A DNA stretch of 64,000 nucleotides from assembly GCF_002939785.1 (NCBI RefSeq), contig NZ_MDEC01000007.1, forward strand, positions 124,001 to 188,000, in the 5' to 3' direction. The number at the start of each line of letters is the position of its first letter. Positions within the stretch are counted from its first letter, which is position 1. This stretch comes from Xanthomonas codiaei. GTDB taxonomy: Bacteria; Pseudomonadota; Gammaproteobacteria; Xanthomonadales; Xanthomonadaceae. Below the pieces are notes generated by a model that saw only the letters and a program-made list of their open reading frames with translations, made no database searches and was not told the DNA's origin. The translations under genes were made by a program, and so were the position numbers. Below are positions 11,925 to 29,220 of this stretch, piece by piece.

Positions 11925-12289
11925 GGCGATCTCCAGTAGCAAGGCCGCCATGCTAGTCGCCGGAAAGTTGTAGCCGCGTCACAACTGGCTGAAATCGGTG
12001 CAACGTTGTGTTTGCCGCTGCCGCGACGCAATGCCGCACCTCCATCGTGCCAAGCGGACCCCATGACCGCTGAAGAGCACTTGCAGGACAACGGGAGGGA
12101 AAGAGGCCTGCCCTCGACCATGCTTCAACCGCGCAGGATGCTCTAGCATCGCGCACTGGCAGCTCCACTGATGGAAGACCACGACAATGCGCCGGAATTC
12201 GATGGTTCTGGTTGTCCTTGGCACCAGCGCGTGTCTGCCTGGATGTGCCTTTGTTCGAGGCACCCCGCCGCATCAACGCGGATGCGCGC
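11925..12289. other. 365-bp intergenic region upstream of the dehydrogenase
   Basis: This should hold the dehydrogenase promoter on the minus strand. A weak inverted pair GTTGT...ACAAC lies at about 11967-11985. I see no convincing -10/-35 and no supported gene; a short plus-strand frame from 12187 with a lipoprotein-like start runs into potI antisense and is not accepted. Confidence 0.5.
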
Positions 12290-13138
12290 TCAGGCGGTCG
12301 CTTGCTGTGCCAGCTGCTGATCGCGCAGGCGACGTTTTTCGCTGCGCGACAGCAGCCACCAGCCGATCACCGCGGCGATCGAGACCGCCAGCACCATCAG
12401 GGTGGCCAGGGCGTTGATCTTCGGGCTGATGCCCAGCCGCACCGACGAGAACACCTTGATCGGCAGCGTGGTGGAACTGGGCCCGGCCAGGAAGCTGGCG
12501 ATCACCACATCGTCCAGCGACAGCGTGAATGCCAGCAGCCAGCCCGAGGCCAGGGCCGGGGCGATGATCGGCAAGGTGATCAGGAAGAACACCTTCAGTG
12601 GCGTGGCGCCCAGGTCCATCGCGGCCTCTTCCAGCGAGCGGTCCAGTTCCTGCAGGCGCGAGGAAATCACCACGGTGACGAACGAGACGGTGAAGGTGAC
12701 ATGCGCCACCCAGATCGCCACTGCGCCGCGTGGTGCGATGCCGAGCACGCCGCCCATCGAGACCAGCAGCAACAGGATCGACAGCCCGATGATGACTTCC
12801 GGCATCACCAGCGGCGCGGTGATCAGTGCGCCGAACACGGTCTTGCCCGGAAACCGGCGCATGCGCACCATCGCCATGGCCGCCATGGTGCCGAGCACGG
12901 TCGATGCGCAGGCGGTCCAGAACGCCACCTCCAGGCTGACCCAGGCCGCGTCCAGCAGTTGCCGGTCGCGCAGCAGCTCGCCATACCAGCGGGTGGAAAA
13001 GCCGCCCCACACCGTGGCCAGGCGCGAGGCGTTGAACGAATACACCATCAGCAACAGGATCGGCAGATACAAAAAAGCGAACCCCAGCGCCAGGATGCCG
13101 CCCCCCAGTACGCGGCCACCGCGCGAGGCGCGCATCAT
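12290..13138 (-). CDS. potI: Polyamine ABC transporter permease PotI
   Basis: A 282-residue inner-membrane permease with about six transmembrane helices, starting FLYLPILLLMVYSFN. The cytosolic EAA loop (EEAAMDLGATPLKVFFLITLPIIAP), which docks the ATPase, is near residues 180-205. The family imports putrescine or spermidine. Its ATG overlaps the potH stop by 4 bp (ATGA), showing translational coupling; a second ATG one codon on is equally possible. With potH, potG and the distant potF it forms one transporter, equivalent to SpuH of Pseudomonas. It is the last gene of the potGHI group. Confidence 0.95.
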   Translation of the reverse strand: MMRASRGGRVLGGGILALGFAFLYLPILLLMVYSFNASRLATVWGGFSTRWYGELLRDRQLLDAAWVSLEVAFWTACASTVLGTMAAMAMVRMRRFPGKTVFGALITAPLVMPEVIIGLSILLLLVSMGGVLGIAPRGAVAIWVAHVTFTVSFVTVVISSRLQELDRSLEEAAMDLGATPLKVFFLITLPIIAPALASGWLLAFTLSLDDVVIASFLAGPSSTTLPIKVFSSVRLGISPKINALATLMVLAVSIAAVIGWWLLSRSEKRRLRDQQLAQQATA

Positions 13139-14178
13139 GTCAGCCGCCCTTCCAGCTCGCGCTGCTGGTAACGGTGGAAGATCATGATCGGCACCAGCAG
13201 CACCAGCAACATGACCGTGGCCACCGCTGCAGCGACCGGCCAGTCGCGGTTGTTGAAGAATTCGCCCCACAACACGCGGCCGATCATCAAGGTATTCGGG
13301 CCGCCGAGCATTTCAGGAATGACGAACTCGCCCACCGCCGGAATCATCACCAGCATGCAGCCGGCCACGATGCCGTTGCGCGACAGCGGCAAGGTGATGC
13401 GCACAAACGCCTGCCACGGACGCGCGCCCAGGTCGTAGGCCGCTTCCAGCAGGCGCTGGTCGTGCTTGACCAGGTTGGCGTACAGCGGCAATAGCATGAA
13501 AGGCAGATAGCAATAGACGATGCCGATATAGGCGGCGATCGGCGTGTACAGCAACTGCAGCGGCTGCCGGATCACACCGATCGCCAGCAACGCCTGATTG
13601 AGCAGGCCATTGCCATCGAGGATGCCGATCCAGGCATAGACACGGATCAGGAACGAGGTCCACGACGGCAGCACCACCAGCATCATCGCCACGTTGCGCG
13701 TGGCCAGCGGCAGGCGCGCAATCACATACGCCATCGGGTAACCGATCAACAACGCCAGTGCGGTGGAAATCGCCGCGATCTTGATCGAGCTCAGGTACGC
13801 GGCCACGTACTGGCTGTCGCGCAGCAGCACCAGATAATTGCCCAGATGCAGCTTGACGCTCACCGCGCCATCGGCCGCATACGCGAACAGCGGCGTATAC
13901 GGCGGCATCGCGGTGGCGCGCTCGGCAAACGAGATCTTCAGCACGATCAAAAACGGGATCGCGAAGAACACCAGCAACCAGAGATACGGCGCGGCGATCA
14001 CGCCCCAGCGCGCACCCGGCACCCCACGGCGGAGAGTGGTTAGCAAAACGTCGCGAGCATTCGCCAGGGGGGTGCGGACGGCGCGGAGGAACCGCAGTGT
14101 ACGGGTGGTACATGAGGATTCCGAGCACCGGCTGCGCCCCCCTGGCGGCTGCGCAGTAGTTTTGCTGGCCGCTCTCAT
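13135..14178 (-). CDS. potH: Polyamine ABC transporter permease PotH
   Basis: A 347-residue permease. A long arginine-rich cytosolic N-terminus (about 60 residues) precedes the first helix (APYLWLLVFFAIPFLIVLKISF), which is longer than usual, so an internal start is possible. The EAA loop EAAYDLGARPWQAFVRITLPLSRNGI contacts the ATPase. The ATG at 14178 overlaps the potG stop by 4 bp, as potI does with potH, so potGHI are tightly coupled. It forms the heterodimeric channel with PotI and corresponds to SpuG. Confidence 0.94.
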   Translation of the reverse strand: MRAASKTTAQPPGGRSRCSESSCTTRTLRFLRAVRTPLANARDVLLTTLRRGVPGARWGVIAAPYLWLLVFFAIPFLIVLKISFAERATAMPPYTPLFAYAADGAVSVKLHLGNYLVLLRDSQYVAAYLSSIKIAAISTALALLIGYPMAYVIARLPLATRNVAMMLVVLPSWTSFLIRVYAWIGILDGNGLLNQALLAIGVIRQPLQLLYTPIAAYIGIVYCYLPFMLLPLYANLVKHDQRLLEAAYDLGARPWQAFVRITLPLSRNGIVAGCMLVMIPAVGEFVIPEMLGGPNTLMIGRVLWGEFFNNRDWPVAAAVATVMLLVLLVPIMIFHRYQQRELEGRLT

Positions 14179-15305
14179 GCGGTGAGCACCACGCCGTCGT
14201 CCTCGCCCCAGCCCACCCACACCGCATCGCCCCAGGTCAGCGCTTCGCTGGCCCAGCGTTGGCGATTGGCGAAATTGGCCATCAGCTTGACCCCGCTGGG
14301 CAGGCGCACGTGATAGACCGAATGGCTGCCGAAATAGGCGATATCTTCGATCACGCCCTGCGCCTTGTTGCAGGCCTGCACCGGCTCGTCCTTGCCGATG
14401 GCGAGCTTTTCCGGGCGCAGCGCAAACGCCACCGCCTGCCCTTCGAAGCCGGTGATGCCATGGCCGATACGGATCGGGGCGTCGAAGGCAGGCGTCTTCA
14501 AGGCGACGTAGTCCGGTTGATCCTCGGCAATGACCGCATCGACCAGATTCACCGAACCGATGAATTCAGCGGCGAAGCGATTGGCCGGTTGTTCGTAGAT
14601 TTCGTCCGGTGTGCCGACCTGCTGGATCCAGCCCTGGTCCATCAGCGCGATGCGCGTGGCCATGGTCATTGCCTCTTCCTGGTCATGGGTGACCATCACG
14701 CAGGTGACGCTGGAGGTCTCGATGATGTTGACCAGTTCCAGCTGCATCTGCGAACGCAGCTTCTTGTCCAGCGCGCCCATTGGCTCGTCCAGCAACAGCA
14801 GCTTGGGCCGCTTGGCCAGCGAGCGCGCCAGCGCCACCCGTTGCTGCTGGCCTCCGGACAACTGATGCGGCTTGCGCCGGGCCAGCGCGCCCAGCTGCAC
14901 CAGCTCCAGCATTTCGCCGACACGGGTGGTGACCGCCGCCTTCGACAGCCCTTCCTGCTTCAGTCCGAAGGCGATGTTCTGCTCCACGCTCATATGCGGA
15001 AACAGCGCATACGACTGGAACATCATGTTGATCGGGCGCTCGTACGGCGGCAGCGCGTCGATGGATTGACCATCGAGCGTGATGCGCCCATTGGTCGGCT
15101 GTTCGAAGCCGGCCAGGCAGCGCAGCAAGGTGGACTTGCCGCTGCCCGAGCCGCCCAGCAGCGCGAAGATCTCGCCCTTGCGGACCTGCAGGCTGACATC
15201 GTCGAGCGCAACGAAACCGTCGAACTCCTTGCGCACCGCGTCGATGGACAGATAACCGGCATCGGCGGGGCTGGAGGGTGGCGACATGGCCTCGGGCAGT
15301 GACAT
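14175..15305 (-). CDS. potG: Polyamine ABC transporter ATP-binding protein PotG
   Basis: A 376-residue ATPase energising polyamine import. Walker A GGSGSGKST lies at 51-59, the signature LSGGQQQR from 149, and Walker B LLLLDEPMGALD with Asp173-Glu174. A C-terminal TOBE-type regulatory domain follows from about 290. I use the ATG at 15305, just before the N-terminal domain; longer frames upstream are unsupported. It is the first gene of the potGHI group and therefore needs a promoter in the 571-bp gap upstream, since the neighbouring efflux operon separates it from potF. Confidence 0.96.
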   Translation of the reverse strand: MSLPEAMSPPSSPADAGYLSIDAVRKEFDGFVALDDVSLQVRKGEIFALLGGSGSGKSTLLRCLAGFEQPTNGRITLDGQSIDALPPYERPINMMFQSYALFPHMSVEQNIAFGLKQEGLSKAAVTTRVGEMLELVQLGALARRKPHQLSGGQQQRVALARSLAKRPKLLLLDEPMGALDKKLRSQMQLELVNIIETSSVTCVMVTHDQEEAMTMATRIALMDQGWIQQVGTPDEIYEQPANRFAAEFIGSVNLVDAVIAEDQPDYVALKTPAFDAPIRIGHGITGFEGQAVAFALRPEKLAIGKDEPVQACNKAQGVIEDIAYFGSHSVYHVRLPSGVKLMANFANRQRWASEALTWGDAVWVGWGEDDGVVLTA

Positions 15306-15876
15306 GGGTTCTCTCGATGGCGGCAGGCGCGGGCGCCATGCACGGAGTCTGCGCGCCATCATGACAAAAGCCGGATTCGCCTGCAGGCTACCCGGCCGAT
15401 CGCGGCGCAAGGCGACGCATCGCCCATCGCTGTCGACTGCCGGACGCATGAGGCACGCGCACGCGCCCGCGTGGCGCATGGCCTGCGCCTATACCGCAGC
15501 GGTATGGCGTAGCAGCGGACCTGGCTGCGACACTGTTCCGAAGACCCTCCACCACGCCGCCGACAGTCCCCGCAGGCGCGGCGACCAGGTCGGGCGCACC
15601 CACGCCGACTCACTGCGCCATGGCAGACATGCTCGCGAAATGCGAGGGACCGAAACGCGGCGACAACCATGCGGCCATCGCGGTGCGGGCAAGACGCGCA
15701 TGTCGCTTTCGCCGACCGCCTGCCACGCTCGCCGTTGCGCGACGTCGCGCGCCGGCGACGGCGTATAGCGCGACATCGCCGGTTCGCCCCCGCCGGCAGC
15801 GAACGCATCCACGACCTCCGCGGCAACCGCCTCGATACGGCCGGCATCCGCGCTCAACGAGCGGCAGCCGGATGCC
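15306..15876. other. 571-bp intergenic region between potG and the efflux operon
   Basis: No supported gene. It should contain the potG promoter and the end of the efflux transcript. The only clear structure is a 15-bp palindrome, ATACCGCAGCGGTAT (15491-15505), with 7-bp arms around one A. Open frames on both strands are rich in Arg and Ala, show no domain, and look like chance frames in GC-rich DNA. Confidence 0.5.
15491..15505. promoter_or_regulatory. 15-bp palindrome upstream of potG
   Basis: ATACCGC and GCGGTAT are exact reverse complements around a central A, about 186 bp upstream of the potG start. It could be a regulator site for potGHI or part of a hairpin. The palindrome is seen; the role is inferred. 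Confidence 0.35.
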
Positions 15877-17367
15877 TCAGCGCGTTTCCTTCGGCGCCTC
15901 GCTCCAGCCCAGCCCCAGGCTCTTCTGCAAGGCCACATAGTTCACCAGCAACTGCACCTGCGCCTGCGCGGCGGCGTCCTGCGCCGAGAGTTGCTGGCGC
16001 TGCACATCCAGCAGGTCGATCGAGGAGGTCGCGCCGGCATCGCGGCGTTGCTGCATCAGCCCGGCCGAGCGCGTGGCCGAGGCTTCGGCCTGGCGCGCGA
16101 CCACCAGTTGCTTGCGCGCCGAGCCGAAACGCGACAGCGCCGCATTGGCGTCCTGCAAGGCGCCCAGCACCGCCGCCTCGTAGGCCGCCTCGCGCCCGGC
16201 GTTGCCGGCGCGCGCCTGGTCGACCTGCGCGCGGGTCTTGCCGAAATCGAAGATCGACCAGCGCAGCATCGGCGCCGCCAGCACGGTGCGCGCATCGGAA
16301 TTGAAATCGCTGGGTGAGCCGGCCACCCAGCTCAGGCCGCCCAGCAGGGTCACCTGCGGGAAATAGCCATTCAAGGCCTCGCCGATCTGGGCGCTGGAGG
16401 CAGCCAGCTCGCGCTCGGCCTTGCGCACGTCCGGGCGACGGCGGATCAGCGCACCGGCATCGTCCACGCGCACCTGCGTCGGCAGCATCGGTAGCGGCTG
16501 GGGCGTGCTCAACTGGGCATCCAGCGCGCCGGGCTCGCGCCCGACCATCAGCGCCAGCTGGTCCTGCGCTTCCTGCGCCTGCATCTGCAATGGCAGGCGT
16601 TGCGCTTGCTGCTGCTGCACCTGGGTGGCGATCTGTTCGACCTGCAGGTCCGACGCGGCGCCCTGGCTCCGGCGTTGCTGTACCAGCTGCAGCGTTTGGC
16701 GGATCTTGTCCAGGTTGGCATCGGCGATCGCCAGCCGCGCCTGCAACCCACGGTAGTTGAGGTACACCTGCCCGACCTCGGCGGCCAGCTGCACCTGCGC
16801 ATCGGCCAGTTCGGCCTCGGAGGCCTGCGCCTGGGCCAGCGCGCCTTCGGCGGCGCGGCGGCGGCGGCCGAAGAAATCCAGCTCCCAGCTGGCGTCGAAG
16901 CCGGCGCTGTAGATCTCGGTCTTTTCCAGATCCAGCGCCTGGCTGCCTTGCGCGGGCGGCTGGCCCTGCTGGCCGTTCTGCTGGCCGCCCAGCGTGTCCA
17001 CGATGGACTGCGGCGGTTCGGCATACGCGTACACCGCGCTGGCGTTGAGCTTGGGCAGACGCTCGGCGCGGCGCTGGCGGGCCAGTGCGCGATTGGCCTG
17101 CAGGCGTGCCTGCGCGGCACGCAGATTGGGGCTGTCGGCCAGCGCCTGGGTCACCAGCTGGGTCAGGGTCGGGTCGTGCAGTTCTTCCCACCAGTGGTTC
17201 AACGGTGCAGCGGCCACCACTTCCGCGCCGCTGGCGCGATGCAGCGTCGGAGCCTGCATGGCCGCATCGGCCACCGGGGGGGCCTTGGTGTAATTGGGGC
17301 CGAGCATGCAGCCGCCGAGCACGACAGCACTCAACGCCGCGGCCAGCGGCAGGCGGAGCAGGCGCAT
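15877..17367 (-). CDS. Outer-membrane efflux factor, NodT family lipoprotein
   Basis: A 496-residue TolC-like outer-membrane channel of the NodT/OprM type. The signal peptide ends in the lipobox VLGGC with Cys20 as the lipidated residue. Two copies of the OEP alpha-hairpin repeat follow, seen in LRAAQARLQANRALARQRRAERLP and again in RRPDVRKAERELAASSAQIGEA near residue 300. The ATG at 17367 begins 4 bp after the transporter stop, so it is the third gene of an emrA-emrB-OMF operon and completes a tripartite pump spanning both membranes. The substrate is not evident. Confidence 0.94.
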   Translation of the reverse strand: MRLLRLPLAAALSAVVLGGCMLGPNYTKAPPVADAAMQAPTLHRASGAEVVAAAPLNHWWEELHDPTLTQLVTQALADSPNLRAAQARLQANRALARQRRAERLPKLNASAVYAYAEPPQSIVDTLGGQQNGQQGQPPAQGSQALDLEKTEIYSAGFDASWELDFFGRRRRAAEGALAQAQASEAELADAQVQLAAEVGQVYLNYRGLQARLAIADANLDKIRQTLQLVQQRRSQGAASDLQVEQIATQVQQQQAQRLPLQMQAQEAQDQLALMVGREPGALDAQLSTPQPLPMLPTQVRVDDAGALIRRRPDVRKAERELAASSAQIGEALNGYFPQVTLLGGLSWVAGSPSDFNSDARTVLAAPMLRWSIFDFGKTRAQVDQARAGNAGREAAYEAAVLGALQDANAALSRFGSARKQLVVARQAEASATRSAGLMQQRRDAGATSSIDLLDVQRQQLSAQDAAAQAQVQLLVNYVALQKSLGLGWSEAPKETR

Positions 17368-17371
17368 GGAA

Positions 17372-18958
17372 TCAATGCATCGCAAGGTGCGTCCCCTTGG
17401 GTAACGGCTTGAGCAAAAAGGCCAGCGGAATCGTGCACACCACGATCATGCCGAAGATCCAGAACAGGTCGCTGTAGGTCATCACCAGCGCCTGCTGTTG
17501 CACCACCCGCGCAAACTGCGCGATGGAACGAATCGCCGCCTCGCCCCCGGCGCTGCCCTGCATCTGCGCGCTCAGGCCGGCCAGCGCCTCCTGCGCGCGC
17601 GGGGCGTTGGCGGTGATCGAACTGCCGATGGTTTCGGTGTGGAAGGTCATGCGCCGCTCCTGGAAGGTGGAGATCAGCGCCAGGCCGACCGAACCGCCCA
17701 GGTTGCGGCCGGCATTGAACAGCCCCGAGGCATCGCCGGCCAGTTCCGGCGGCACCGAGGAAATGGCCGCCTGGTTAAGCGACATCATCGCCAGCGCCAG
17801 CCCACAGCCCTGCAGCAGCTGTCCTGCGACGAAATGCATGCCCACCGTGTCGGCGGTCAGTTCCAGATTGACGAAGCAGGCGGCAGCGAAGCACAGCAGG
17901 CCGGCGATCACCAGGATGCGCACGTCCACCACGTCCAGCAGCTTGGGCATCATCGGCATCAGCAACACGGTCGGCAGCCCGGACAGCAGCAATACGTAGC
18001 CGGCCTGCTCGGTGTTGTAGCCGGAGATCACCGCCAGGAACTGCGGGATCATGTACATCACGCCGAACAGGATCATGCCCACAGCCATGATCATGATGAA
18101 CACCGCACCGAAGCTGCGATGCAGCAGCAGCGACAGGTGGATGACCGGTGCGCGCTTGCGGAACTGGCCGACGATCAACGCAATGAAACCGCTCAAGGCG
18201 ATCAGGCTCAGCGTGTTGATCTCGCTGGATTCGAACCAGCGTTCGCGCTGGCCCTCCTCCAGCACCACGGTGAGCCCGCCCAGCCCGGCCGTGAGGCCGT
18301 AGATGCCCAGCCAGTCGGCATCGAGCAGACCGGCCCAGTTGCCCTTCTCGTGTTCCAGCCCCAGCAGCAGCAGCGCCACCAGGCCCGCGCAGATCGGCAC
18401 GTTGATGAAGAAGGCGTAGTGCCAGCTGACGTTCTCGGTCAGCCAGCCGCCCAGCAGCGGGCCGATCACCGGCCCCATGATCACGGTCATGCCGAACAGC
18501 GCGGTACCCATGGTCTGCTGGCTGGGCGGCAGCCGGGTGGCCACGATGGTCAGCGCGGTGGGAATCAGCGCGCCGCCGGCCAGGCCCTGCCCCACGCGGC
18601 CGATGATCATCATCGGCAACGAGGTCGACAGGCCGCACACCACCGAGAACGCGGTGAACATCACCGCGCAGATCAGCAGGAAGTTGCGCAGGCCCAGGGT
18701 GCGCACGAACCAGCCGGTCAACGGGATCATGATGATCTCGGCCACCAGGTAGGCGGTGGAGATCCAGGTGCCTTCGGTACCGCTGGCGCCCACCTCGCCC
18801 TGGATGGTGGGCAGGGCCGCATTGACGATGGAGATGTCCAGCGTGGCCATGAACGAGCCGATGGTACCGGCCAGCACCGCCAGCCACGCGCCGGGATCGG
18901 CCTTTTCGCGACCGACGCTGCCGCCGGCGCCCTGACCGGTGGCGGCCGCTGCGCTCAT
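17372..18958 (-). CDS. emrB: EmrB/QacA-type drug:H+ antiporter (DHA2 MFS)
   Basis: A 528-residue inner-membrane transporter with 14 predicted helices. The N-terminal half has the DHA2 signature around FMATLDISIVNAALPTIQ (helix 1) and motif C-like GPVIGPLLGGWLTENVSWHYAFFINVP in helix 5, typical of EmrB. The start overlaps the emrA stop by 4 bp. With EmrA and the outer-membrane factor it should extrude hydrophobic toxins or, given its unusual place inside a polyamine operon, possibly an amine; the latter is speculation. Confidence 0.94.
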   Translation of the reverse strand: MSAAAATGQGAGGSVGREKADPGAWLAVLAGTIGSFMATLDISIVNAALPTIQGEVGASGTEGTWISTAYLVAEIIMIPLTGWFVRTLGLRNFLLICAVMFTAFSVVCGLSTSLPMMIIGRVGQGLAGGALIPTALTIVATRLPPSQQTMGTALFGMTVIMGPVIGPLLGGWLTENVSWHYAFFINVPICAGLVALLLLGLEHEKGNWAGLLDADWLGIYGLTAGLGGLTVVLEEGQRERWFESSEINTLSLIALSGFIALIVGQFRKRAPVIHLSLLLHRSFGAVFIMIMAVGMILFGVMYMIPQFLAVISGYNTEQAGYVLLLSGLPTVLLMPMMPKLLDVVDVRILVIAGLLCFAAACFVNLELTADTVGMHFVAGQLLQGCGLALAMMSLNQAAISSVPPELAGDASGLFNAGRNLGGSVGLALISTFQERRMTFHTETIGSSITANAPRAQEALAGLSAQMQGSAGGEAAIRSIAQFARVVQQQALVMTYSDLFWIFGMIVVCTIPLAFLLKPLPKGTHLAMH

Positions 18959-20148
18959 CGCGCGCGCTCCTGCTCCTGCACGCGCTCGGATTCTGCTTCG
19001 GCACGCTGCTTGGCATCCTTGGCCGAGCGCGTGTCCACCGTCACTTCCACCGACATGCCCGGCACCAGCACCTTGCGCGCCTCGTCTCCGGCCAGCACGC
19101 GGATACGCACCGGCACCCGCTGCACCACCTTGGTGAAGTTGCCGGTGGCGTTTTCCGGCGGCAACAGCGCGAATTGCGAGCCGGTACCCGGCGACAGGCT
19201 TTCGACCTTGCCGTGCAGCTTCACGCCCGACAGCGCATCGACCTCGATCTCGGCGGGCTGGCCGGGACGCATCAGGCCGACCTGGGTTTCCTTGAAATTG
19301 GCGACCAAGTACAGCGACTCCTGCGGCACGATGGTCATGGTGCGAGTGCCGGCGGCCAGGAACTGACCTTCCTGCACGGTCTTGTCGCCGACCCGGCCGT
19401 GGATGCGGCTGGTCAGGCGGGTGTCTTCCACCGCCACGCGGGCCTGGTCGGCATCGGCGCTGGCCTGCTTCAGGCCGGCCTGGGCCTGTTCCAGCTGCGC
19501 GCGGCTGGCCTGGATCTGGCTCTGCGCCCCGCTGGCCTGCGCCTGTGCGGCCTCGTACTGGGCGCGGGCGCGGGCCAGTTCGTGCTGCAGGCTTTCCTGG
19601 TGCTCGTGGGTGTCGGCGCCGGAGGCCGCCAGGGGCGCGAAGCGCTTCACTTCGGCCTGGGCGAACCTGAGACTGGCCGCGGCCGAGGTCACCTGGGTCC
19701 GCGCCTGCACCAGCGCCGCTTCCTGGCCGGCGACATTGGCAGTGGCGGCCACGATGTCGGCCTGGCGTGCGGCAATGGCCGCCTCGGCCTGCTGCAGGGT
19801 GGCCTGGTAGGTGCGGTCATCGATCTGCAGCAGCGGCTGGCCGGCCTCCACGATCTGGTTGTCGCCCACCAGCACCTTGGTCACATAGCCGCTGACGCGC
19901 GGCGCCACCGCCACCGAGTCGGCCTGCAGGTAGGCGTTATTGGTGTCCTGCATGTAGCGGCCCTTGACAAGGTAATAGGCCAGCCAGACAACCAGCAGCA
20001 CCAGCACCAGCACGCCCACCAGGATCAGGGTCCATCTGACCTTGGGATTCTTCAGCGGCGACGGCTTTGGCGGCTGCTGGGCCTCAACGCCCTGGGCATC
20101 GGCGGACGAGTCGCGGCCATCATTGGACGGGTGGTCTTGGTTGCTCAA
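18955..20148 (-). CDS. emrA: EmrA-type membrane fusion protein (HlyD family)
   Basis: A 397-residue periplasmic adaptor. A Gln/Pro-rich cytosolic N-terminus of about 37 residues precedes one transmembrane helix (38-60, rich in Leu and Val). Then come a lipoyl half-motif (VAPRVSGYVTKVLVGDNQIVEAGQPLLQID), a long Ala/Gln-rich coiled coil (about 115-225) and the second lipoyl half with beta-barrel (DTRLTSRIHGRVGDKTV). I select the TTG at 20148 because AGGA lies 8 nt before it and the EmrA-like N-terminus begins there; an upstream ATG at 20190 is possible. First gene of the efflux operon. Confidence 0.92.
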   Translation of the reverse strand: MSNQDHPSNDGRDSSADAQGVEAQQPPKPSPLKNPKVRWTLILVGVLVLVLLVVWLAYYLVKGRYMQDTNNAYLQADSVAVAPRVSGYVTKVLVGDNQIVEAGQPLLQIDDRTYQATLQQAEAAIAARQADIVAATANVAGQEAALVQARTQVTSAAASLRFAQAEVKRFAPLAASGADTHEHQESLQHELARARAQYEAAQAQASGAQSQIQASRAQLEQAQAGLKQASADADQARVAVEDTRLTSRIHGRVGDKTVQEGQFLAAGTRTMTIVPQESLYLVANFKETQVGLMRPGQPAEIEVDALSGVKLHGKVESLSPGTGSQFALLPPENATGNFTKVVQRVPVRIRVLAGDEARKVLVPGMSVEVTVDTRSAKDAKQRAEAESERVQEQERAR

Positions 20149-20587
20149 AGGAAGCGTCCTGTGTGTCGTGGGCGAGGCGCGCCAGGGCATGCCGCAGCAG
20201 CGGCGCAAGCGAGCGCGGCGAAACCATACAATTATTTAAACCCGCCAGTACAGATAGTGTGACGAGCCTGGTCAGCCTGCGCTTGGCTTGTGCCGGCCAG
20301 TGCGCCTGATGGGTCGGTGGCGCGACGGGCGCCCGGCCCGCGACGACCGGACGCCGCAGTACCGACCGCATGCCCCTGCGACCAGGTTGGAAGTGTCAGC
20401 GACCAGGATGGGTTTTTTATTGGGATGCAACGGCCTGCACCGCGCCGGTGTCTGGCACATGGACCTTGGAGCGGCCGGCACCCCGTCGCGGGGGGGGCGC
20501 ATGGAGATGCACGACGCGCAGGAACCAGGGCGAAGCTTCCGGGCAACGACGTCGCCCACCCGGCCGCCGCACAGGCGGGCGGTGCAG
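20149..20587. other. 439-bp region between potF and emrA
   Basis: It includes the likely emrA promoter: an AT-rich patch at about 20226-20242 (ATTATTTAAA on the plus strand) stands out in very GC-rich DNA. No gene or regulator is visible, although emr operons usually have a MarR or TetR regulator beside them. A run of seven G at 20490-20496 and a T-rich stretch near 20411 are the only other oddities. Confidence 0.5.
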
Positions 20588-21703
20588 TCAGCGGCCGGTC
20601 TTGATCTCGGTCCACAACCGCGTGTACAGGCGGTCCACGTCCGGCGGATTGATCGCGTAGGTGAACATCTTGGCGGTCACCTCCGGCGGCGGATAGATGG
20701 TGGGATCGTTGCGGATCGTCGCATCCACCAACGGCGTGGCGGTACGCACCGGGTTGGCGTAGTGGATGAAGTTGGTATTGGCCGCGGCCACCTCGGGCTT
20801 CAACAGGTAGTTGATGAAGGCGTAGGCGTTGTCCGGATGCTTGGCGTCCTTGGGAATGGCCAGCATGTCGAACCATTGCGGCGCGCCTTCCTTCGGGATC
20901 GCGTAGGCCACCTTGACGGTGTTGCCGGCTTCCACCGCGCGATCGCGCGCCTGGATGATGTCGCCCGACCAGCCCACCGCCAGGCAGGTATTGCCGTTGG
21001 CCAGCGAGGTCACGTACTGGCTGGAGTGGAAATTCTGCACATACGGGCGAATGGCCTTGATCAGCGCGGCAGCCTTTTCGATCTCGGCCGGCACCGTGCT
21101 GTGCGGGTCCAGGCCCAGGTAATTGAGGGCGATCGGAATCATGTCCGAGGGCGTGTCCAGGATGGTCACGCCGCAGTCCTTGAGCCTGGACAGGTTGTCC
21201 GGCTTGAACACCAGATCCCAGCTGTTGGCCACCTCGGTGCTGCCGAAGATCGCCTTGAGCTTGTCGACGTTGTAGCCGATGCCGGTGGTGCCGATCATGT
21301 AGGGCACGCCATAGGCATTCCCCGGGTCCTGCGCAGCGATGCGGCGCATCACATCCGGGTCCAGATTGGCCAGGTTGGGGATCTTGCTCTTGTCCAGCGG
21401 CAGGAACACGCCGGCCTGGATCTGCCGGCCGAAGAAGTTGAGCGTGGGCACCACCACGTCGTAATCGCTGCCGCCGGCCAGCAACTTGGTTTCCACCATC
21501 TCGTCGCTGTCGAACACGTCGTAGGTGACCTTGATACCCGTGCTCTTTTCGAATGCCGGAATGGTGTCTTCGGCGATGTAGTCGGAATAGTTGTAGACGT
21601 TGAGCACCTTGGCCTGCGCGTCGGCTTTGCCCGGGGCGCCACCGCCGCCACAGCCGGACAACAGGGTGATGGACAGCGTCAATGCGAGCAGTCGCAGCGT
21701 CAT
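20588..21703 (-). CDS. potF: Polyamine-binding lipoprotein PotF/SpuD type
   Basis: A 371-residue periplasmic substrate-binding protein for putrescine or spermidine. The signal peptide ends with LLSGC, Cys18 being the predicted lipid-anchored residue. Family hallmarks are VLNVYNYSDYIAEDTIPAFEKSTGIKV split by its start, YDVVVPTLNFFGRQIQAG, VGWSGDIIQARDRA and NAYAFINYLLKPEVAA. It lies downstream of the aminotransferase on the same strand and corresponds to SpuD/SpuE of Pseudomonas. Its ABC partners potGHI lie 5.3 kb further on, beyond the emr efflux genes, so the transporter is encoded in two pieces. Confidence 0.95.
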   Translation of the reverse strand: MTLRLLALTLSITLLSGCGGGGAPGKADAQAKVLNVYNYSDYIAEDTIPAFEKSTGIKVTYDVFDSDEMVETKLLAGGSDYDVVVPTLNFFGRQIQAGVFLPLDKSKIPNLANLDPDVMRRIAAQDPGNAYGVPYMIGTTGIGYNVDKLKAIFGSTEVANSWDLVFKPDNLSRLKDCGVTILDTPSDMIPIALNYLGLDPHSTVPAEIEKAAALIKAIRPYVQNFHSSQYVTSLANGNTCLAVGWSGDIIQARDRAVEAGNTVKVAYAIPKEGAPQWFDMLAIPKDAKHPDNAYAFINYLLKPEVAAANTNFIHYANPVRTATPLVDATIRNDPTIYPPPEVTAKMFTYAINPPDVDRLYTRLWTEIKTGR

Positions 21704-21958
21704 GTGGATCTCCAGCGCGATGGGGGCGGCCCGGCGCGGGGCCGGTCTGGCGCCAGACTACCCAGCGTGCCCGGGTTTGCCCAGCGGGGGCCGGCCGGAA
21801 GGCGCGCTGGCCATGCGGCAGGCAACGGGAATCATGCGGGCCGCCCGCAGGCGCGTTAGCAGCGACCGATGCCGTGCTCCCGATCGGCAGGCCGGATGCT
21901 GCATTGCCTGGCAACGAGCCCAGGGTGCGCCTGCGCGCTGGCGATGCCCTGCTGTCGC

Positions 21959-23338
21959 TCACCTGCCCAGCGCGTGCGCGGTGTCGTCCAGCGCGCCCCA
22001 GGCCTTGTCAAACAGCTCGTCCACCTGTTCGCGGGTGATGATCAGCGGCGGCGACAGCAGCATGGCGTCGTAGGTGGCGCGCAGGATCAGCCCGCGTTGC
22101 AGCGCGAAGTCGCGGCAGAGCGCGCCGACCAGCCCGCGACTGGGAAAATACCTGCCGCGTTGGCGCCTGTCCGGCACCAGCTCCAGCGCGCCGACCAGCC
22201 CAGCGATGCGCGCCTCGCCCACCAATCGGTGCTCGCCCAGCTCGGCCCAGCGCTGCGCCAGATACGGCGCGATCTGCGTGCGTGCGGTGTCCACGATGCC
22301 CTCGTCCTGCAGCAGACGCAGATTCTCCAGCGCCACCGCCGCGCACACCGGATGCCCGGAATACGTGCCCCCATGCGCCAGCTCGCCGCCCTGCTGCTTG
22401 AGCACCCCGGCCACGCGGTCGTTGAAGATCGCCGCTGCCAGCGGGATATAGCCGGAGGTGATGCCCTTGGCCAGCGTCATCACATCCGGCTGAAACCCGA
22501 AATACTCGGCCCCGAACCACGGCCCGGTGCGCCCGAACCCGCAGATCACTTCGTCGGCCACCAGCAACACGTCGTAGTGCCGGCAGATGCGCGCGATCTC
22601 CGGCCAGTAGCTGCGCGGCGGGATATAGACACCGATCGCGCCCAGGATGGGCTCGCCGATGAAGGCCGCCACGTTTTCCGGCCCGAGTTCGAGAATCTTC
22701 GCTTCCAGCCGGCGTGCCGCCAGCAGGCCGTAGTCCTGCGGATCCAGGTCACCGCCATCGCCGAAGTGATACGGCGGTGCGATATGCGCGATGCCCGGGA
22801 TCGGCAAGCCCCCCTGCTTGTGCATGCCCTGCATCCCGCCCAGGCTGGCGCCAGCCATGGTGGTGCCGTGGTAGCCATCGTGGCGGCCGATGAAGACCTG
22901 TTTTTGCGGCAGCCCCTGCACCGCCCAGAAATGCCGCACCAGGCGCAGGATGGTGTCGTTGGCTTCGGACCCGGAGTTGGCGAAGAAGGCATGGTTCAGA
23001 TCGCCCGGCGTCAGCTCCGCCAGCTTGGCGGCAAGGCGGATGGTGGGCTCGGTGGTGCACTGGAAGAAGCTGTTGTAGTACGCCAGCTGCTCCATCTGCC
23101 GCGCCGCGGCCTGCGCCAGCTCGGTGCGCCCATAGCCTACGTTGACGCACCACAACCCGCCGAACGCATCCAGCAGCTTGTTGCCGTCGGCATCCCACAC
23201 GTAGACGCCTTCACCGCGCGTCAGGATGCGTGTACCTTTTTGCGCCAACACCGCGTTGTCGTTGAACGGATGCAGATGATGCGCCGCATCGAGCTGCTGC
23301 AGCGACCTGAGCACAGAAGAATCCACGACCTGCTCCAC
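21959..23338 (-). CDS. Putrescine/omega-amino acid aminotransferase, SpuC type
   Basis: A 459-residue class III PLP-dependent aminotransferase. The cofactor-binding segments are NSGSEANDTILRL, the aspartate in LLVADEVICGFGRTG and the Schiff-base lysine Lys291 in TLAKGITSGYIP. By context it is probably SpuC-like (putrescine:pyruvate) or a GABA aminotransferase, converting putrescine or GABA to the aldehyde. The start chosen is GTG at 23338. It precedes potF by 255 bp and is separated from the puuA gene by 800 bp of repeats. Substrate choice between putrescine and GABA cannot be settled by eye. Confidence 0.9.
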   Translation of the reverse strand: MEQVVDSSVLRSLQQLDAAHHLHPFNDNAVLAQKGTRILTRGEGVYVWDADGNKLLDAFGGLWCVNVGYGRTELAQAAARQMEQLAYYNSFFQCTTEPTIRLAAKLAELTPGDLNHAFFANSGSEANDTILRLVRHFWAVQGLPQKQVFIGRHDGYHGTTMAGASLGGMQGMHKQGGLPIPGIAHIAPPYHFGDGGDLDPQDYGLLAARRLEAKILELGPENVAAFIGEPILGAIGVYIPPRSYWPEIARICRHYDVLLVADEVICGFGRTGPWFGAEYFGFQPDVMTLAKGITSGYIPLAAAIFNDRVAGVLKQQGGELAHGGTYSGHPVCAAVALENLRLLQDEGIVDTARTQIAPYLAQRWAELGEHRLVGEARIAGLVGALELVPDRRQRGRYFPSRGLVGALCRDFALQRGLILRATYDAMLLSPPLIITREQVDELFDKAWGALDDTAHALGR

Positions 23339-23468
23339 GCGTGAGGAATCAAGAGCATACCCAGGCCCCGTTGCCGGACCGTGGACGGTGTTGCAGAGCG
23401 CTCCGCCAAGCCCGTGCGCGTCCGACAGACAGCTTGGCCGCGAGAACTTCCTCTGCCGCTAGCCTCGC

Positions 23469-23530
23469 CCTCATCCGCCCTTCGGGCATCTTCTCCCCAT
23501 AAAGGAGGACAATGTCCCAATGGGAGAAGG
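23469..23530. repeat. Dispersed CTCATCCG hairpin element, loop-expanded copy
   Basis: This carries CCTCATCCGCCCTTCGGGCA, then CTTCTCCC, then a loop, then GGGAGAAGG. Compared with the copy at 24070-24110 it is 21 bp longer, the additional bases (CATAAAGGAGGACAATGTCCC) lying in the loop between the CTTCTCCC and GGGAGAAG arms. The element family also occurs at 10469 and in the array at 47710. Confidence 0.7.
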
Positions 23531-23656
23531 AAACGTCTGGCAACGTAGGCGGCCTGCACATTTCGACCGCACTTTCGGCCTCCTGCCCAGCACCGCCTGG
23601 CCTGTGCATAGCGCCGCACCTCCGTGCGCTGCGCAAAACGGCGCTTGCCCCGCCCT

Positions 23657-23703
23657 GCTTTGCTTTGCTTTGCTTGCCTTTGCTTGCCTTTGCCTGGCTT
23701 TCG
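23657..23703. repeat. TTTGC-type simple sequence repeat
   Basis: Repeated CTTTG / CTTGCCTTTG words run for about 47 bp. It lies outside any gene, so length variation would be unlikely to switch a protein. Confidence 0.7.
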
Positions 23704-23730
23704 CTTTTCCGGGGCCCCATACCGCAGCGG

Positions 23731-23828
23731 CAAGGCCGGCAGATACAACCCGCAGGGCGGCGCGCATGGATGCGCGACGTTTTTGTAAGGGACATGAATG
23801 TCCCTTACAAAAATTTCTGCCGGCCTTG
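23731..23828. repeat. 98-bp nested inverted repeat
   Basis: Outer arms CAAGGCCGGCAGA (23731-23743) and TCTGCCGGCCTTG (23816-23828) are exact complements. Inside is a second perfect palindrome, TTTTTGTAAGGGACA (23780-23794) and TGTCCCTTACAAAAA (23799-23813), around a TGAA loop. The inner stem ends in A/T runs on both sides, so it could act as a bidirectional terminator; the outer arms suggest a mobile or structured unit. Confidence 0.8.
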
Positions 23829-23885
23829 CGCACCCGTAGCACCGCAGGCGCGTAGGGCGCGAGGACGGGGTGTGCTTTCTTTTTG

Positions 23886-23921
23886 GTTAATTTTTCTTTG
23901 CACAAGCAAAGAAAAAGTAAC
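23886..23921. repeat. AT-rich 16-bp-arm hairpin
   Basis: GTTAATTTTTCTTTGC (23886-23901) pairs with GCAAAGAAAAAGTAAC (23906-23921) at 15 of 16 positions around an ACAA loop. It is directly followed by CGCGCCC-AAA-GGGCGTG, a second small stem. The very low GC contrasts with the flanks. Similar sequences are frequent in Xanthomonas intergenic DNA as far as I recall. Confidence 0.75.
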
Positions 23922-24069
23922 TCGCGCCCAAAGGGCGTGAAAGCTCTGCGTTGGGTTCAACTATCCAGAACAATTCCAAAGAAACGTGAAAGCTCGGCTT
24001 TAAATTTGCCCCCAAGAAACGCGCAAGCACACAAGCCACGCCACGCTTCAACACCACCCGACACCGTAC

Positions 24070-24110
24070 CCTCATCCGCCCTTCGGGCACCTTCTCCCAA
24101 TGGGAGAAGG
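24070..24110. repeat. Dispersed CTCATCCG hairpin element
   Basis: A compact copy: CCTCATCCGCCCTTCGGGCA followed by CCTTCTCCC-AAT-GGGAGAAGG. It lies 27 bp after the puuA stop on the transcript side, where it could form a 3-prime stabilising or terminating hairpin. Confidence 0.7.
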
Positions 24111-24136
24111 GAAACGCCCGGTTTCGACCACGCCGC

Positions 24137-25522
24137 TCACACGTTCAACAACAGAAACTCCCGCTCCCACGAGCTGATCACCCGGAAAAACGTCTCATAT
24201 TCCTTCCGCTTCACCGAGATATAGGCCCGCACGAAGCGCGCGCCCAACATGTCCTGCAATGCCTCGCATCCCTCCAACCCATCCAGCGCCTCCCCCAACG
24301 AGCGCGGCAGGTCGTAGCCCTGCTCCTTGCCATTGCTGCTGACCGGCGCGGTTGGCTCGAGCTTTTCGCGGATACCCAATAACCCGCAGGCCAGGGTCGC
24401 CGCCATCGCCAGATACGGGTTGGCGTCGGAGCCGGCGAAGCGGCTCTCCACCCGCATGTTCTGCGGCGCATCGATCGGCACCCGCAGTCCGCAGGTACGG
24501 TTGTCGAAGCCCCACAGCACATTGCTCGGCGACACCTCGCCGAACATCAGCCGCCGGTACGAATTGACGTTGGGTGCCAGCAGCCCCATCGCCATCGGAA
24601 TATATTTCTGCAGCCCGCCCAGATAATGCGCGAAGGTGTCGCTGAAGCCGCCTTCGCGCTTGCCGCTGAACACGTTCTTGCCGGTGCCCGCGTGCAACAG
24701 GCTCTGGTGGATATGCATCGCGCTGCCCGGCTCGGTTTCCATTGGCTTTGCCAGGAAGGTCGCATACACGCCGTGGCGCAGCGCAGCCTCGCGCATGGTG
24801 CGCTTGAACAGGAACACCTGGTCGGCGCGCGACAAGGCATCGGCATGGGTGAAATTGACTTCCAGCTGCGCGGCGCCGGATTCGTGGATCAAGGTGTCCA
24901 CATCCAGTTCCATCGCATCGCAGTAGTCGTACATCAGGTCCAGGATCGGGTCGAACTCGTTGACCGCATCGATGGAATACGACTGCCGCGCGGTCTCCGG
25001 CCGGCCCGAGCGGCCGGCCGGCGGCAGCAGCGGGAAATCCGGGTCGGTGTTCTTCTGCACCAGGAAGAACTCCAGCTCCGGCGCCACCACCGGCTGCAGC
25101 TTGACCTGCGCATAGGCATCGAGCACGCGCCGCAACACATTGCGCGGCGCCAGCTCGTGCGGCTGGCCATCCTTGGTATAGCAATCGTGGATGACCTGCG
25201 CGGTGGGGTCGGCGGCCCACGGCACCATGCGCACGGTGGAGGCATCCGGGCGCAGGTGCATGTCCGAATCCGACGGCGAAGTCAGCGCGTAGTAGTCGTC
25301 GGGAAAGTCGCCGGTGACGGTGGTGGCGAAGATGCCTTCCGGCAACCGCGTGCCGTAGTCGTGGGAGAACTTGTCGGCCGGAATGATCTTGCCGCGCGCG
25401 TTGCCGGTAATGTCCGGCACCAGGCATTCCACCTCGGTGATGTTGCGGTCCTTGAGCCAGCGGCGCAAGGCGCTCTCCGGCTGCTTGGGCGTGGCGATGC
25501 GCGAACGTTGACGAAGCGACAT
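24137..25522 (-). CDS. puuA: Gamma-glutamylputrescine synthetase-like (glutamine synthetase family)
   Basis: A 461-residue glutamine synthetase fold enzyme. It has the N-terminal beta-grasp (VECLVPDITGNARGK), the metal-binding glutamates in APELEFFLV (Glu149, Glu151), the ATP/metal histidine segment GSAMHIHQSL and the FDNRTCGLRVP and GSDANPYLAMAA blocks. In the Puu pathway such enzymes ligate glutamate to putrescine using ATP. It equals SpuB in the Pseudomonas spu order. The puuD start lies 7 bp upstream of this gene's start region, so puuD-puuA form an operon. A paralogue is encoded divergently at 26431. Activity on other polyamines is possible. Confidence 0.9.
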   Translation of the reverse strand: MSLRQRSRIATPKQPESALRRWLKDRNITEVECLVPDITGNARGKIIPADKFSHDYGTRLPEGIFATTVTGDFPDDYYALTSPSDSDMHLRPDASTVRMVPWAADPTAQVIHDCYTKDGQPHELAPRNVLRRVLDAYAQVKLQPVVAPELEFFLVQKNTDPDFPLLPPAGRSGRPETARQSYSIDAVNEFDPILDLMYDYCDAMELDVDTLIHESGAAQLEVNFTHADALSRADQVFLFKRTMREAALRHGVYATFLAKPMETEPGSAMHIHQSLLHAGTGKNVFSGKREGGFSDTFAHYLGGLQKYIPMAMGLLAPNVNSYRRLMFGEVSPSNVLWGFDNRTCGLRVPIDAPQNMRVESRFAGSDANPYLAMAATLACGLLGIREKLEPTAPVSSNGKEQGYDLPRSLGEALDGLEGCEALQDMLGARFVRAYISVKRKEYETFFRVISSWEREFLLLNV

Positions 25523-25528
25523 ACAACC

Positions 25529-26284
25529 TCACTGGCCGCGCTGGGCGGCATGACGGCGACAGGCCTGGCCGAAGGCCTCGAAGATGGCACGGTAGAACGG
25601 TTGCTGTGTGACACGCCATTCCGGATGCCACTGCACAGCCAGCAGAAATCCGGGCCCCGCGCCGCGGAAGGCTTCGATCAGGCCATCGGGTGCGGTGGCT
25701 TCGACCAGCAACCCGTCGGCAAGCCGGGCGATGCCCTGCCCGTGCAGCGAATTGACCATCACCTCGCTGGCGCCGCTCATGCCGGCCAGCCAGCCGCCAG
25801 GCTGCAGCCGCACCGGATGGGCGGGGCCGTATTGCACTTCCAGCGCAGCGCTGCGGTCTTCGCGGTGATCGGCCAGGCCGGGCACGTCATGCACGCGCTG
25901 GTGCAGGCGCCCGCCCAGCGCCACATTCACCTCCTGCAGGCCGCGGCAGATCGCCAGCACCGGCAGGCCGCGCGCCAGCGCCTGCGGAATCATCCCCAGG
26001 CTGGTGGCATCGCGGGCCGCATCGTGCGGGTTTCCCTCCCAGCTGGATTCATCGCTGTAGTGATGCGGCTCGATATTGCTGACCGCTCCGGTGAGCAACA
26101 GGCCGTCCAGGCGCTCCAGCCACACCGCGGCATCAAGCGTGGGCTGCAGGCTGGGCAGCAACACCGGCATGGCCCCGGCCGCTTCCACCACCGCGCGCAC
26201 GTATTTTTCGCCGGCCGCCAGGAACGGATGCGGCCCCTGCGCGATGCGGTCGGTCGGCAGCCCGACCAGCGGTACGACAGCCAT
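25529..26284 (-). CDS. puuD: Gamma-glutamyl-GABA hydrolase (class I amidotransferase-like)
   Basis: A 251-residue peptidase C26-type hydrolase that releases GABA and glutamate from gamma-glutamyl-GABA. The nucleophile is Cys113 in AICRGLQE, with His220 and Glu222 (WHPEW) completing the triad. The oxyanion-type loop LLLTGAVSNIEPHHY is typical of PuuD/SpuA. It is the first gene of the minus-strand operon, followed 6 bp later by puuA. The 146-bp gap to the divergent puuA paralogue should hold both promoters. Confidence 0.94.
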   Translation of the reverse strand: MAVVPLVGLPTDRIAQGPHPFLAAGEKYVRAVVEAAGAMPVLLPSLQPTLDAAVWLERLDGLLLTGAVSNIEPHHYSDESSWEGNPHDAARDATSLGMIPQALARGLPVLAICRGLQEVNVALGGRLHQRVHDVPGLADHREDRSAALEVQYGPAHPVRLQPGGWLAGMSGASEVMVNSLHGQGIARLADGLLVEATAPDGLIEAFRGAGPGFLLAVQWHPEWRVTQQPFYRAIFEAFGQACRRHAAQRGQ

Positions 26285-26430
26285 GCAGACATCCCGATGC
26301 GGCGCGTTGAACGGCAGGTGCGTCCGAACTTACCGCGCTACCGCCGCCATTGCCACCGCGGCCGCGGCACGCGCCTGCGACGGCTCACGCGCGCTTTGCT
26401 AGGCTGGCGGCGACTTTGCAGGTGGTGCCC

Positions 26431-27810
26431 ATGGCTTCCGAGAACTCCGTCGCGTCCCTGCCCGCCGCCGACGCCACCACCCTGGCGCGCATTCCCGGCT
26501 GTGCCTCGGTGGACCTGCTGTTGCCCGATACCAACGGCGTGCTGCGCGGCAAGCGCATCACCGCCGACACCCTGGGCAAGGTGTACCGCGATGGCGTGTG
26601 CCTGCCGATGTCGCTGATCGCCACCGACATCACCGGCAACACCGTGGAAGAGACCGGGCTGGGCTATGCGATCGGCGATGCCGACCGCATCTGCCGGCCG
26701 ATCGCCGGGTCGCTGCGGCCAGTCCCCTGGGCGCCGCAACCCATGGCGCAGCTGTTGCTGGCGATGCACACCCCCGAGGGCGGCCTGTTCGAGGTGGCGC
26801 CGCGCGCGGTGCTGCAACGCGTGCTGGCGGGCTTTACGGCGCTTGGGCTGACCCCGGTGATTGCGGTGGAGCTGGAGTTCTACCTGTTCGATGCGGTGCC
26901 CGATGCGCAGGGCCGTCCGCAGACACCGCGCGACCCGGTCACCGGCGCGCGCAGCGACAGCACGCAGGTATATTCGCTGCAGGACCTGGACGAGCAGCGC
27001 GGCTTCACCGATGCGGTCACCGCCGCATGCCGCCAGCAAGGCATTCCCGCCGACACCGCCGTGGCCGAGTACGCGCCAGGCCAATTCGAGATCAACCTGC
27101 AGCATCGCGCCGATGCGCTGGCGGCCTGCGACGAGGCGATCCTGCTCAAGCGCACCATCAAGGCCATTGCGCAGCAGCAGGGCATGCTCGCCAGCTTCAT
27201 GGCCAAGCCCTTCCCCGAGCAGGCCGGCAGCGGCCTGCACCTGCATGTGAGCCTGCTGGATGGCGACGGGAACAATGTGCTGGCCGGCCGTGCCGACGCG
27301 CCGACCGACGCGCTGCGCCACGCCATTGCCGGGCTGCAGCGGCATGCCGACGCCTGCCTGCTGCTGTTCGCCCCGCATGCCAACAGCTACCGCCGCTTCG
27401 TCAGCAATGCGTTCGTGCCGCTGGATGCCAGCTGGGGCTTCAACAACCGCACCGTGGCGCTGCGCATCCCGCAGAGCGATGCGCGCAACACCCGCATCGA
27501 ACACCGCATCGCCGGCGCCGATGCCAACCCGTACCTGGTGGCCGCCGCGGTGCTGGCGGCCATGCTGGACGGCTTGCGACAGCCCGGCGAGCCCACTGCG
27601 CCGATCGTGGGCAATGCCTATGCGCAATCGGTGTTCCGCCCACGCACCTGGCAGGGCGCGGTGGATGCGTTCCTGGGCAGCGATTTCATCGACGCCCAGT
27701 TCGGCACGCAATTCCGGCAGGTGTTCGGCCAGCAGAAGCAGCGTGAGCTGTTCGACTACCAGGCGCTGGTGCCGGACCTGGATTACGCCCGGTACCTGCG
27801 CACCGTGTGA
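26431..27810 (+). CDS. puuA: Second gamma-glutamylputrescine synthetase-like protein
   Basis: A 459-residue glutamine synthetase family enzyme, paralogous to the one at 24137 but clearly diverged. It keeps the motifs VELEFYLF (metal ligands), GSGLHLHVSLLD, FNNRTVALRIP and GADANPYLVAAAVLA. I start at the ATG at 26431, preceded by a weak AGGTGG. Its stop overlaps the start of the FAD oxidase gene (TGATG), so synthetase and oxidase are coupled as expected for consecutive Puu steps. The two copies may prefer different amines (putrescine, spermidine, ethanolamine); this is inference. Confidence 0.88.
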   Translation: MASENSVASLPAADATTLARIPGCASVDLLLPDTNGVLRGKRITADTLGKVYRDGVCLPMSLIATDITGNTVEETGLGYAIGDADRICRPIAGSLRPVPWAPQPMAQLLLAMHTPEGGLFEVAPRAVLQRVLAGFTALGLTPVIAVELEFYLFDAVPDAQGRPQTPRDPVTGARSDSTQVYSLQDLDEQRGFTDAVTAACRQQGIPADTAVAEYAPGQFEINLQHRADALAACDEAILLKRTIKAIAQQQGMLASFMAKPFPEQAGSGLHLHVSLLDGDGNNVLAGRADAPTDALRHAIAGLQRHADACLLLFAPHANSYRRFVSNAFVPLDASWGFNNRTVALRIPQSDARNTRIEHRIAGADANPYLVAAAVLAAMLDGLRQPGEPTAPIVGNAYAQSVFRPRTWQGAVDAFLGSDFIDAQFGTQFRQVFGQQKQRELFDYQALVPDLDYARYLRTV

Positions 27811-29120: not shown

Positions 29121-29220
29121 ACGCCGCCGCAGGCGCCGCGCGCAGGCTGCGACGAAGCGCTCAAGTTTTGGCGGGCAGAGCCGTTAGCTGATCTGACGGT
29201 TCGATCCACACGGCCAGCCG

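Follow-up and report, generated by a model that had tools for sequence, protein, structure and literature searches.

EmrAB-TolC of Escherichia coli combines a periplasmic adaptor with a permease of the DHA2 family. EmrCAB-type pumps of Stenotrophomonas and Chromobacterium are three-gene tripartite systems of the major facilitator superfamily (MFS) with their own outer-membrane factor (OMF). In Pseudomonas aeruginosa, the spuABCDEFGH genes combine polyamine catabolism and ABC transport with a divergent glutamylpolyamine synthetase. AmvA of Acinetobacter baumannii is a DHA2 pump and is not known to be tripartite. The locus described here lies in a stretch of 64,000 nucleotides from Xanthomonas codiaei (contig NZ_MDEC01000007.1, positions 124,001 to 188,000), which was analysed whole and is called the window. 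In it, an EmrA-EmrB-OMF pump sits inside a spu/pot polyamine cluster. Like EmrAB-TolC, the pump contains an adaptor and a DHA2 permease. Unlike EmrAB-TolC, its unit includes a NodT-type outer-membrane gene in place of TolC, and a Pfam scan of eight open reading frames (ORFs) in the gaps beside it finds no EmrR-like gene. The permease matches the E. coli EmrB chain 8zal_J with 255 bits (E 1.3e-74, residues 28-518), and its score of 294.2 bits to the NCBIfam model of E. coli EmrB (NF000391) is far below the cut-off of 925. The pump resembles the EmrCAB type in its three genes and is set apart from it, as described, by its gene order (A, B, OMF), its place inside a polyamine cluster and the lack of a regulator found next to it. 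The surrounding genes follow the spuABCDEFGH order, including the divergent synthetase, except that there is one binding-protein gene, which is followed by the pump before the ATPase gene. The SmvA-family model scores 69 bits on the permease, far below its cut-off of 701. AmvA is similar in being an MFS pump linked to polyamines (PMC8458285). A literature search, mainly of open-access sources, returned no recognisable description of a pump inside this polyamine cluster among the matches listed.

The reading favoured here, with some reserve, is that the pump came in by horizontal transfer, is a self-contained exporter cassette (EmrA-EmrB-OMF) under its own control, and occupies the place between potF and potG in the spu/pot cluster of xanthomonads. 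In Pfam and NCBIfam searches, the minus-strand order from 12290 to 26284 is puuD, puuA, aminotransferase, potF, emrA, emrB, OMF, potG, potH and potI. This is the order that an earlier note had given from the sequence, with the three pump genes on one strand between the binding-protein gene and the ATPase gene. The emrA-like adaptor gene (18955..20208, minus strand) exceeds the cut-offs of the general HlyD models PF16576 and PF13437; its best model, TIGR00998, gives 249.4 bits against a curated cut-off of 390.8. Its likely start is the TTG at 20148, which is conserved together with a preceding AGGA in an alignment of 24 rows. The emrB-like gene (17372..18958, minus strand) encodes a member of the DHA2/EmrB subfamily (TIGR00711, 384.7 bits, cut-off 230.2). 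The third gene (15877..17385, minus strand) encodes a NodT-type OMF (TIGR01845, 278.9 bits, cut-off 210.05; PF02321) and supplies the outer-membrane part of a tripartite pump. The pump ORFs are closely packed in the window: emrA shares 4 bases with emrB, whose other end touches or overlaps the ORF of the OMF. On the upstream side lies potF (20588..21703, minus strand; NF007962, 474 bits, cut-off 636), the polyamine binding-protein gene, and on the downstream side lies potG (14175..15479, minus strand), the ATPase gene, which is over the cut-off of the polyamine ATPase model TIGR01187 (409 bits, cut-off 355.6) and whose likely start is the ATG at 15305 in an alignment of starts. By ORF and homology bounds, 382 bases separate potF from emrA and 400 separate the OMF gene from potG. 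The earlier note had also remarked that the pump has no transposase or dedicated regulator beside it. None is found among the eight ORFs in or across both flanking gaps, which have no Pfam match, ORFs shorter than about 100 amino acids being outside the scan.

The arrangement recurs throughout the genus and is therefore not due to chance. Among 35 Xanthomonas genomes, emrB is present in 34 (E 1e-100), potF in 33 (E 1e-80) and potG in 31 (E 1e-150). In every potF-bearing genome, potF and emrB are on the same contig, 1.4-1.8 kb apart, which is the room of emrA. The remaining two genomes are X. cucurbitae (G108), which has the pump without potF, and G124, which has neither; among the matches listed, the long DNA matches of G124 to this stretch are to puuA, puuD and the puuA paralogue only. 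At the same thresholds, 11 of 99 genomes sampled from the family have emrB and 48 have potF. Nine of these 11 have potF adjoining the pump. The other two are G053, without such a potF, and G001, in which potF is on a different contig, inside a second pot cluster. No PotF is detected at E 0.001 in the draft genomes G108, G053 and G124. Across 274 genomes of the class, the only EmrB relative at E 1e-90 is that of X. codiaei itself.

A contig scan, which reaches close relatives, yielded 158 loci, of which the best 80 were kept. The Lysobacteraceae account for 43 of them, counting [Pseudomonas] boreopolis and a Lysobacterales metagenome-assembled genome (MAG); one contig filed as Enterobacterales (L138), two Comamonadaceae loci and 34 more distant loci were set aside. 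The pump lies between potF and potG in 36 of the 43 loci and between potF and a contig end in one more. It lies between potI and aldh in three loci, all from Pseudoxanthomonas, between puuA and aldh in X. massiliensis, and between cbrR and aldh in X. cucurbitae and Stenotrophomonas sp. MMGLT7. Here aldh is the next cluster gene past potI, a succinate-semialdehyde-dehydrogenase-like aldehyde dehydrogenase gene (10560..11951 in the window, minus strand; PF00171; NF006915, 520 bits, cut-off 730). The comparison across relatives that the earlier note had proposed thus places the arrangement well beyond this one genome. In the remaining 37 loci, no puu/pot cluster is found in the available flanks. 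Eleven of them have single query matches, the strongest of which are to PotG (47-49%) and lie at the margin of two Novosphingobium loci. Neighbours were called by a crude ORF rule in eight of the 37, and the five genes scanned were a hand-picked few that give no rate: three chosen for a regulator-like look are two TetR genes and one MarR gene, and those beside the two Comamonadaceae pumps (one scanned at each) encode a 2OG-Fe dioxygenase and an amidohydrolase and are not regulators.

In relatives without the pump, potF is followed by potG and the site is empty. After paralogous pot clusters of less than 58% identity in PotG are set aside, there are 20 such loci with both genes, and the gap is shorter than 300 bases in 17. 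Pseudoxanthomonas has an unbroken potFGHI, and its pump occupies a second slot of the same cluster, between potI and aldh. In the tree of pot genes and puuA (39 rows), the pump-bearing Pseudoxanthomonas group with pumpless family members (support 84, unstarred), and a branch with support of 99 divides the group that contains them from Xanthomonas and Stenotrophomonas. In the pump tree (35 rows, after L138, L155, L163, L177 and L187 were dropped), the Pseudoxanthomonas pump is instead placed beside most Xanthomonas (99). In the EmrB-only tree, Pseudoxanthomonas falls within a 25-row clade (99/97) that contains L138 and both of what we take to be Xanthomonas groups 1 and 2 (our own labels), with no resolved order inside the clade. 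The approximately unbiased test rejects a placement of the Pseudoxanthomonas pump outside the whole of the remaining Lysobacteraceae pumps (p-value 0.0043) and a grouping of its pot genes with those of Xanthomonas (6.6e-8). A second conflict between trees involves Xanthomonas sp. AmX2 and group 1 (6.0e-8). These values are optimistic because the groups were picked after the trees had been seen and the trees are of a quick kind. The aldh tree does not resolve the placement of the Pseudoxanthomonas aldh. Given the different slot and the tree conflict, the simplest reading is that the pump was transferred into the Pseudoxanthomonas cluster; since the pump and pot trees disagree and a second slot is used, the pump probably entered this polyamine cluster more than once.

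The pump is conserved and is apparently a self-contained exporter. It is probably a separate unit because it is still present in relatives without the surrounding polyamine genes. In X. cucurbitae (L154), the single long DNA match to positions 12000-27800 corresponds to 15874-20286, which is the pump together with a conserved block upstream of emrA; the other matches are short. The pump ORFs are open in this species and the pump locus contains no puu/pot genes. Its ratios of nonsynonymous to synonymous substitution (dN/dS) against the window are 0.065 for emrB, 0.099 for OMF and 0.163 for emrA; three pot-bearing relatives give 0.043-0.073, 0.061-0.104 and 0.118-0.133, respectively. The pump is also present in Stenotrophomonas sp. 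MMGLT7, where puu/pot genes are absent from the locus, and in X. massiliensis, where the aminotransferase and pot genes are absent from it. Across loci with both neighbours, the gap from potF to emrA ranges from 74 to 2157 bases and that from the OMF gene to potG from 19 to 634, the small values of the latter arising partly from potG frames that are open upstream of the start.

The block upstream of emrA (20221..20265, minus strand) is about 45 bp long, reads roughly TCAC.CAATCTGTACYGGGCGGTTCAAATAATTGTATGGTT, and is kept in a potF-emrA gap where most of the surroundings fail to align (24 rows). Its core, CTGTAC-N6-GTNCAAAT, contains an imperfect palindrome, TGTAC-N6-GTACA. Upstream of emrA, 30 of the 43 Lysobacteraceae-type loci carry the 20-bp core with at most one mismatch (27/27 loci of Xanthomonas group 2, two of group 1 and the [Pseudomonas] boreopolis locus), a count that includes several loci of the alignment from which the core was derived. 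A 30-bp form of the block occurs once in the X. codiaei genome at up to three mismatches. From its position and conservation, the block may be a promoter or operator. A regulon sharing it was sought with the 20-bp form at up to two mismatches and was rejected; the 16 and 15 matches on the two strands equal those of the control (16 and 15) and are at chance level. A second conserved promoter, upstream of potG, was also rejected, as a weak likeness to TTTTGCCATCAT is shared by many of the 17 rows aligned and is missing from others. Terminator-like sites between 11900 and 29300 number 10, and 8.4 in shuffled sequences.

In the proposed mechanism, a proton-driven DHA2 permease would be joined through the HlyD-type adaptor to its own outer-membrane channel and would carry amphiphilic toxic compounds or metabolites out of the cell into its surroundings in a single step. 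The pump would be transcribed mainly from its own promoter inside the 439-bp gap after potF, with control at the TGTAC-N6-GTACA-like site by a regulator encoded elsewhere, for which a TetR type is a guess. The gene identities, their position and conservation, the conserved block, the pump without pot genes in some relatives and the tree conflict are shown, and the promoter/operator role of the block, the regulator, the energy source and the substrate class are inferred. The earlier note had offered two interpretations, that the pump moved in secondarily or that it exports polyamines or their toxic conjugates so that import and export are controlled together. Secondary entry is borne out by the empty site of pumpless relatives and by the conflict between pump and pot trees. 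Obligatory common control is argued against by the promoter/operator-like block in front of emrA and by the pump's presence where potF and its neighbours are missing, and the block and the X. cucurbitae locus also weaken common operon control as a default. The earlier note had further named as part of a refutation that close relatives carried the pump elsewhere with potFGHI intact at this place. No locus has that form as worded, L138 being a possible exception. L138 is a short MAG contig whose EmrB nests among Lysobacteraceae pumps in the EmrB tree, and about 2 kb upstream of its emrA have no match to any of the 13 query proteins. It is perhaps a pump copy outside the cluster because of this lack of cluster matches, or perhaps a mis-filed contig.

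Several observations weigh against an independent cassette. All 42 Lysobacteraceae-type loci with both flanks visible sit at this cluster's place, and the second slot in Pseudoxanthomonas together with the conflicting gene histories is poorly explained by chance landing. Thirteen of the 43 loci (Stenotrophomonas, Pseudoxanthomonas and others) have no such core in front of emrA, and a consensus scan from 11900 to 29300 finds no sigma-70-type promoters (1.8 in shuffled sequences). Stenotrophomonas sp. MMGLT7, which lacks pot genes at the pump locus, has another potFGHI elsewhere in its genome. The dN/dS ratios are simple pairwise counts that do not separate out the time since pot loss, and for emrA the X. 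cucurbitae value exceeds those of the three pot-bearing relatives.

A functional link between the pump and polyamines may exist, since the pump occurs at two slots of the cluster in different genera. In the strongest form of this link, the pump would be a polyamine overflow valve for spermidine, putrescine, or their acetyl or gamma-glutamyl conjugates formed by enzymes of the adjacent genes, and selection would keep it in place. It would have been drawn at least twice into two slots of the same cluster because of that export, as the conflicting pump and pot trees would allow. We consider this a possible minority reading, kept because the placement is repeated, and each of its two parts, the export and the repeated recruitment, is about equally tentative. 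The retention of potF and pump together in 33 of 35 Xanthomonas genomes is consistent with it, as is the precedent of Acinetobacter AmvA, which is reported to export spermidine and spermine (PMC8458285). In E. coli, deletion of emrB raises 'N8-spermidine' 3.3- and 4.0-fold; the authors call the cause unclear and consider either stress or that acetylated spermidine is a substrate (PMC11971657). However, the pump ORFs of X. cucurbitae are open and appear constrained in the absence of potF and of puu/pot genes at the locus, although a polyamine producer without uptake genes could still need export. All 20 pumpless loci with potF and potG retain the pot genes without a pump, and emrA is preceded by its own promoter-like block. 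In addition, E. coli makes more EmrR, which represses emrAB, in response to polyamines (PMC4405209), a finding that does not point to polyamines as inducers of the pump.

The slot could also be a permissive insertion point at which the pump is a passenger in a meaningless neighbourhood, repeated through recombination in shared flanks. The slot does tolerate insertions because other genes occupy it in two of the 20 pumpless loci, a Pyr_redox_3 oxidoreductase gene in L079 (8552-9979) and a DJ-1/PfpI gene in L095 (10509-11213), and in L145 potF and emrA are separated by a LysR gene (7613-8638). A third pumpless locus, L080, has a wide gap of 492 bases with no clear gene. However, the slot used in Pseudoxanthomonas is a different one. 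Recombination anchored in aldh is not favoured for this genus, as windowed identities give no mosaic signal and do not indicate that aldh or potI moved along with the pump, in a comparison weakened by references that are about equally distant in aldh. A permissive site is improbable, and more so than polyamine export. The self-contained cassette is retained as the preferred reading.

The other genes of the locus make up a Pot/Spu cluster for polyamine uptake and catabolism. The best models for its transport genes are PotF, PotG, PotH and PotI, each below its equivalog cut-off, and the Puu names rest partly on context. The permease genes are potH (13135..14220, minus strand; NF007963, 425.8 bits, cut-off 489), in which homology starts near 14013, and potI (12290..13270, minus strand; NF007889, 371 bits, cut-off 476). 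The puuD-like gene (25529..26284, minus strand) encodes a predicted gamma-glutamyl-GABA hydrolase of the C26 amidase type (PF07722; NF008471, 194 bits, cut-off 266). The puuA-like gene (24137..25522, minus strand) is over the PF00120 cut-off for the glutamine-synthetase family. Its best NCBIfam model is type I GlnA (TIGR00653, 270.5 bits) and gamma-glutamylputrescine synthetase (NF045547) gives 221 bits, both below cut-off, so that its name and role are taken from context. The class III aminotransferase gene (21959..23338, minus strand) is spuC-like (NF005682, 741 bits, cut-off 510). A divergent puuA paralogue on the plus strand also belongs to the cluster, and an FAD oxidoreductase gene (27807..29120, plus strand; PF01266, 214 bits) is PuuB-like by context. 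In X. maliensis (L128, L089), potF is 86%, potG 69% and emrB 92% identical to the window, and the aminotransferase and puuD genes are not found at the locus; its pot genes appear to have evolved faster than the pump or to have a different history. In the X. phaseoli record (L090, L150), the aminotransferase, emrA, emrB and potG genes are each split over two frames, which may be sequencing error.

The gap of about 800 bp between puuA and the aminotransferase gene (23338-24137) contains GCCCGAAGGGCGGATGAGGG twice as a repeated motif, and parts of it match many sites in X. cucurbitae. An sX9 element (RF02228, 87.5 bits) lies in the potG/potH junction (14038..14113, minus strand) and a second copy lies at 32021-32099 on the plus strand. 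This 'sRNA' family is a high-copy dispersed element in the X. codiaei genome, with at least 112 matches (79 over the gathering score), a lower bound since 150 of 3664 first candidates were scored. Several matches are overlapping pairs on opposite strands with starts about 57 bases apart, and there are none in 14 control genomes. Copper responses are described in X. campestris for sX9 genes and for a target named 'EmrB_12' (PMC10924375); this target is not equated with the emrB described here.

If the pump does export polyamines or their conjugates, polyamine import, breakdown and whole-envelope export would form one xanthomonad locus in which the pump has a separate switch. Should the repeated placement have a functional basis, genome data could help to trace the substrate that an EmrAB-type pump naturally handles in a group of plant-associated bacteria. 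If it has none, the locus would be a clear case of a transport operon interrupted by an efflux cassette that apparently has its own switch and is able to outlast the operon around it.

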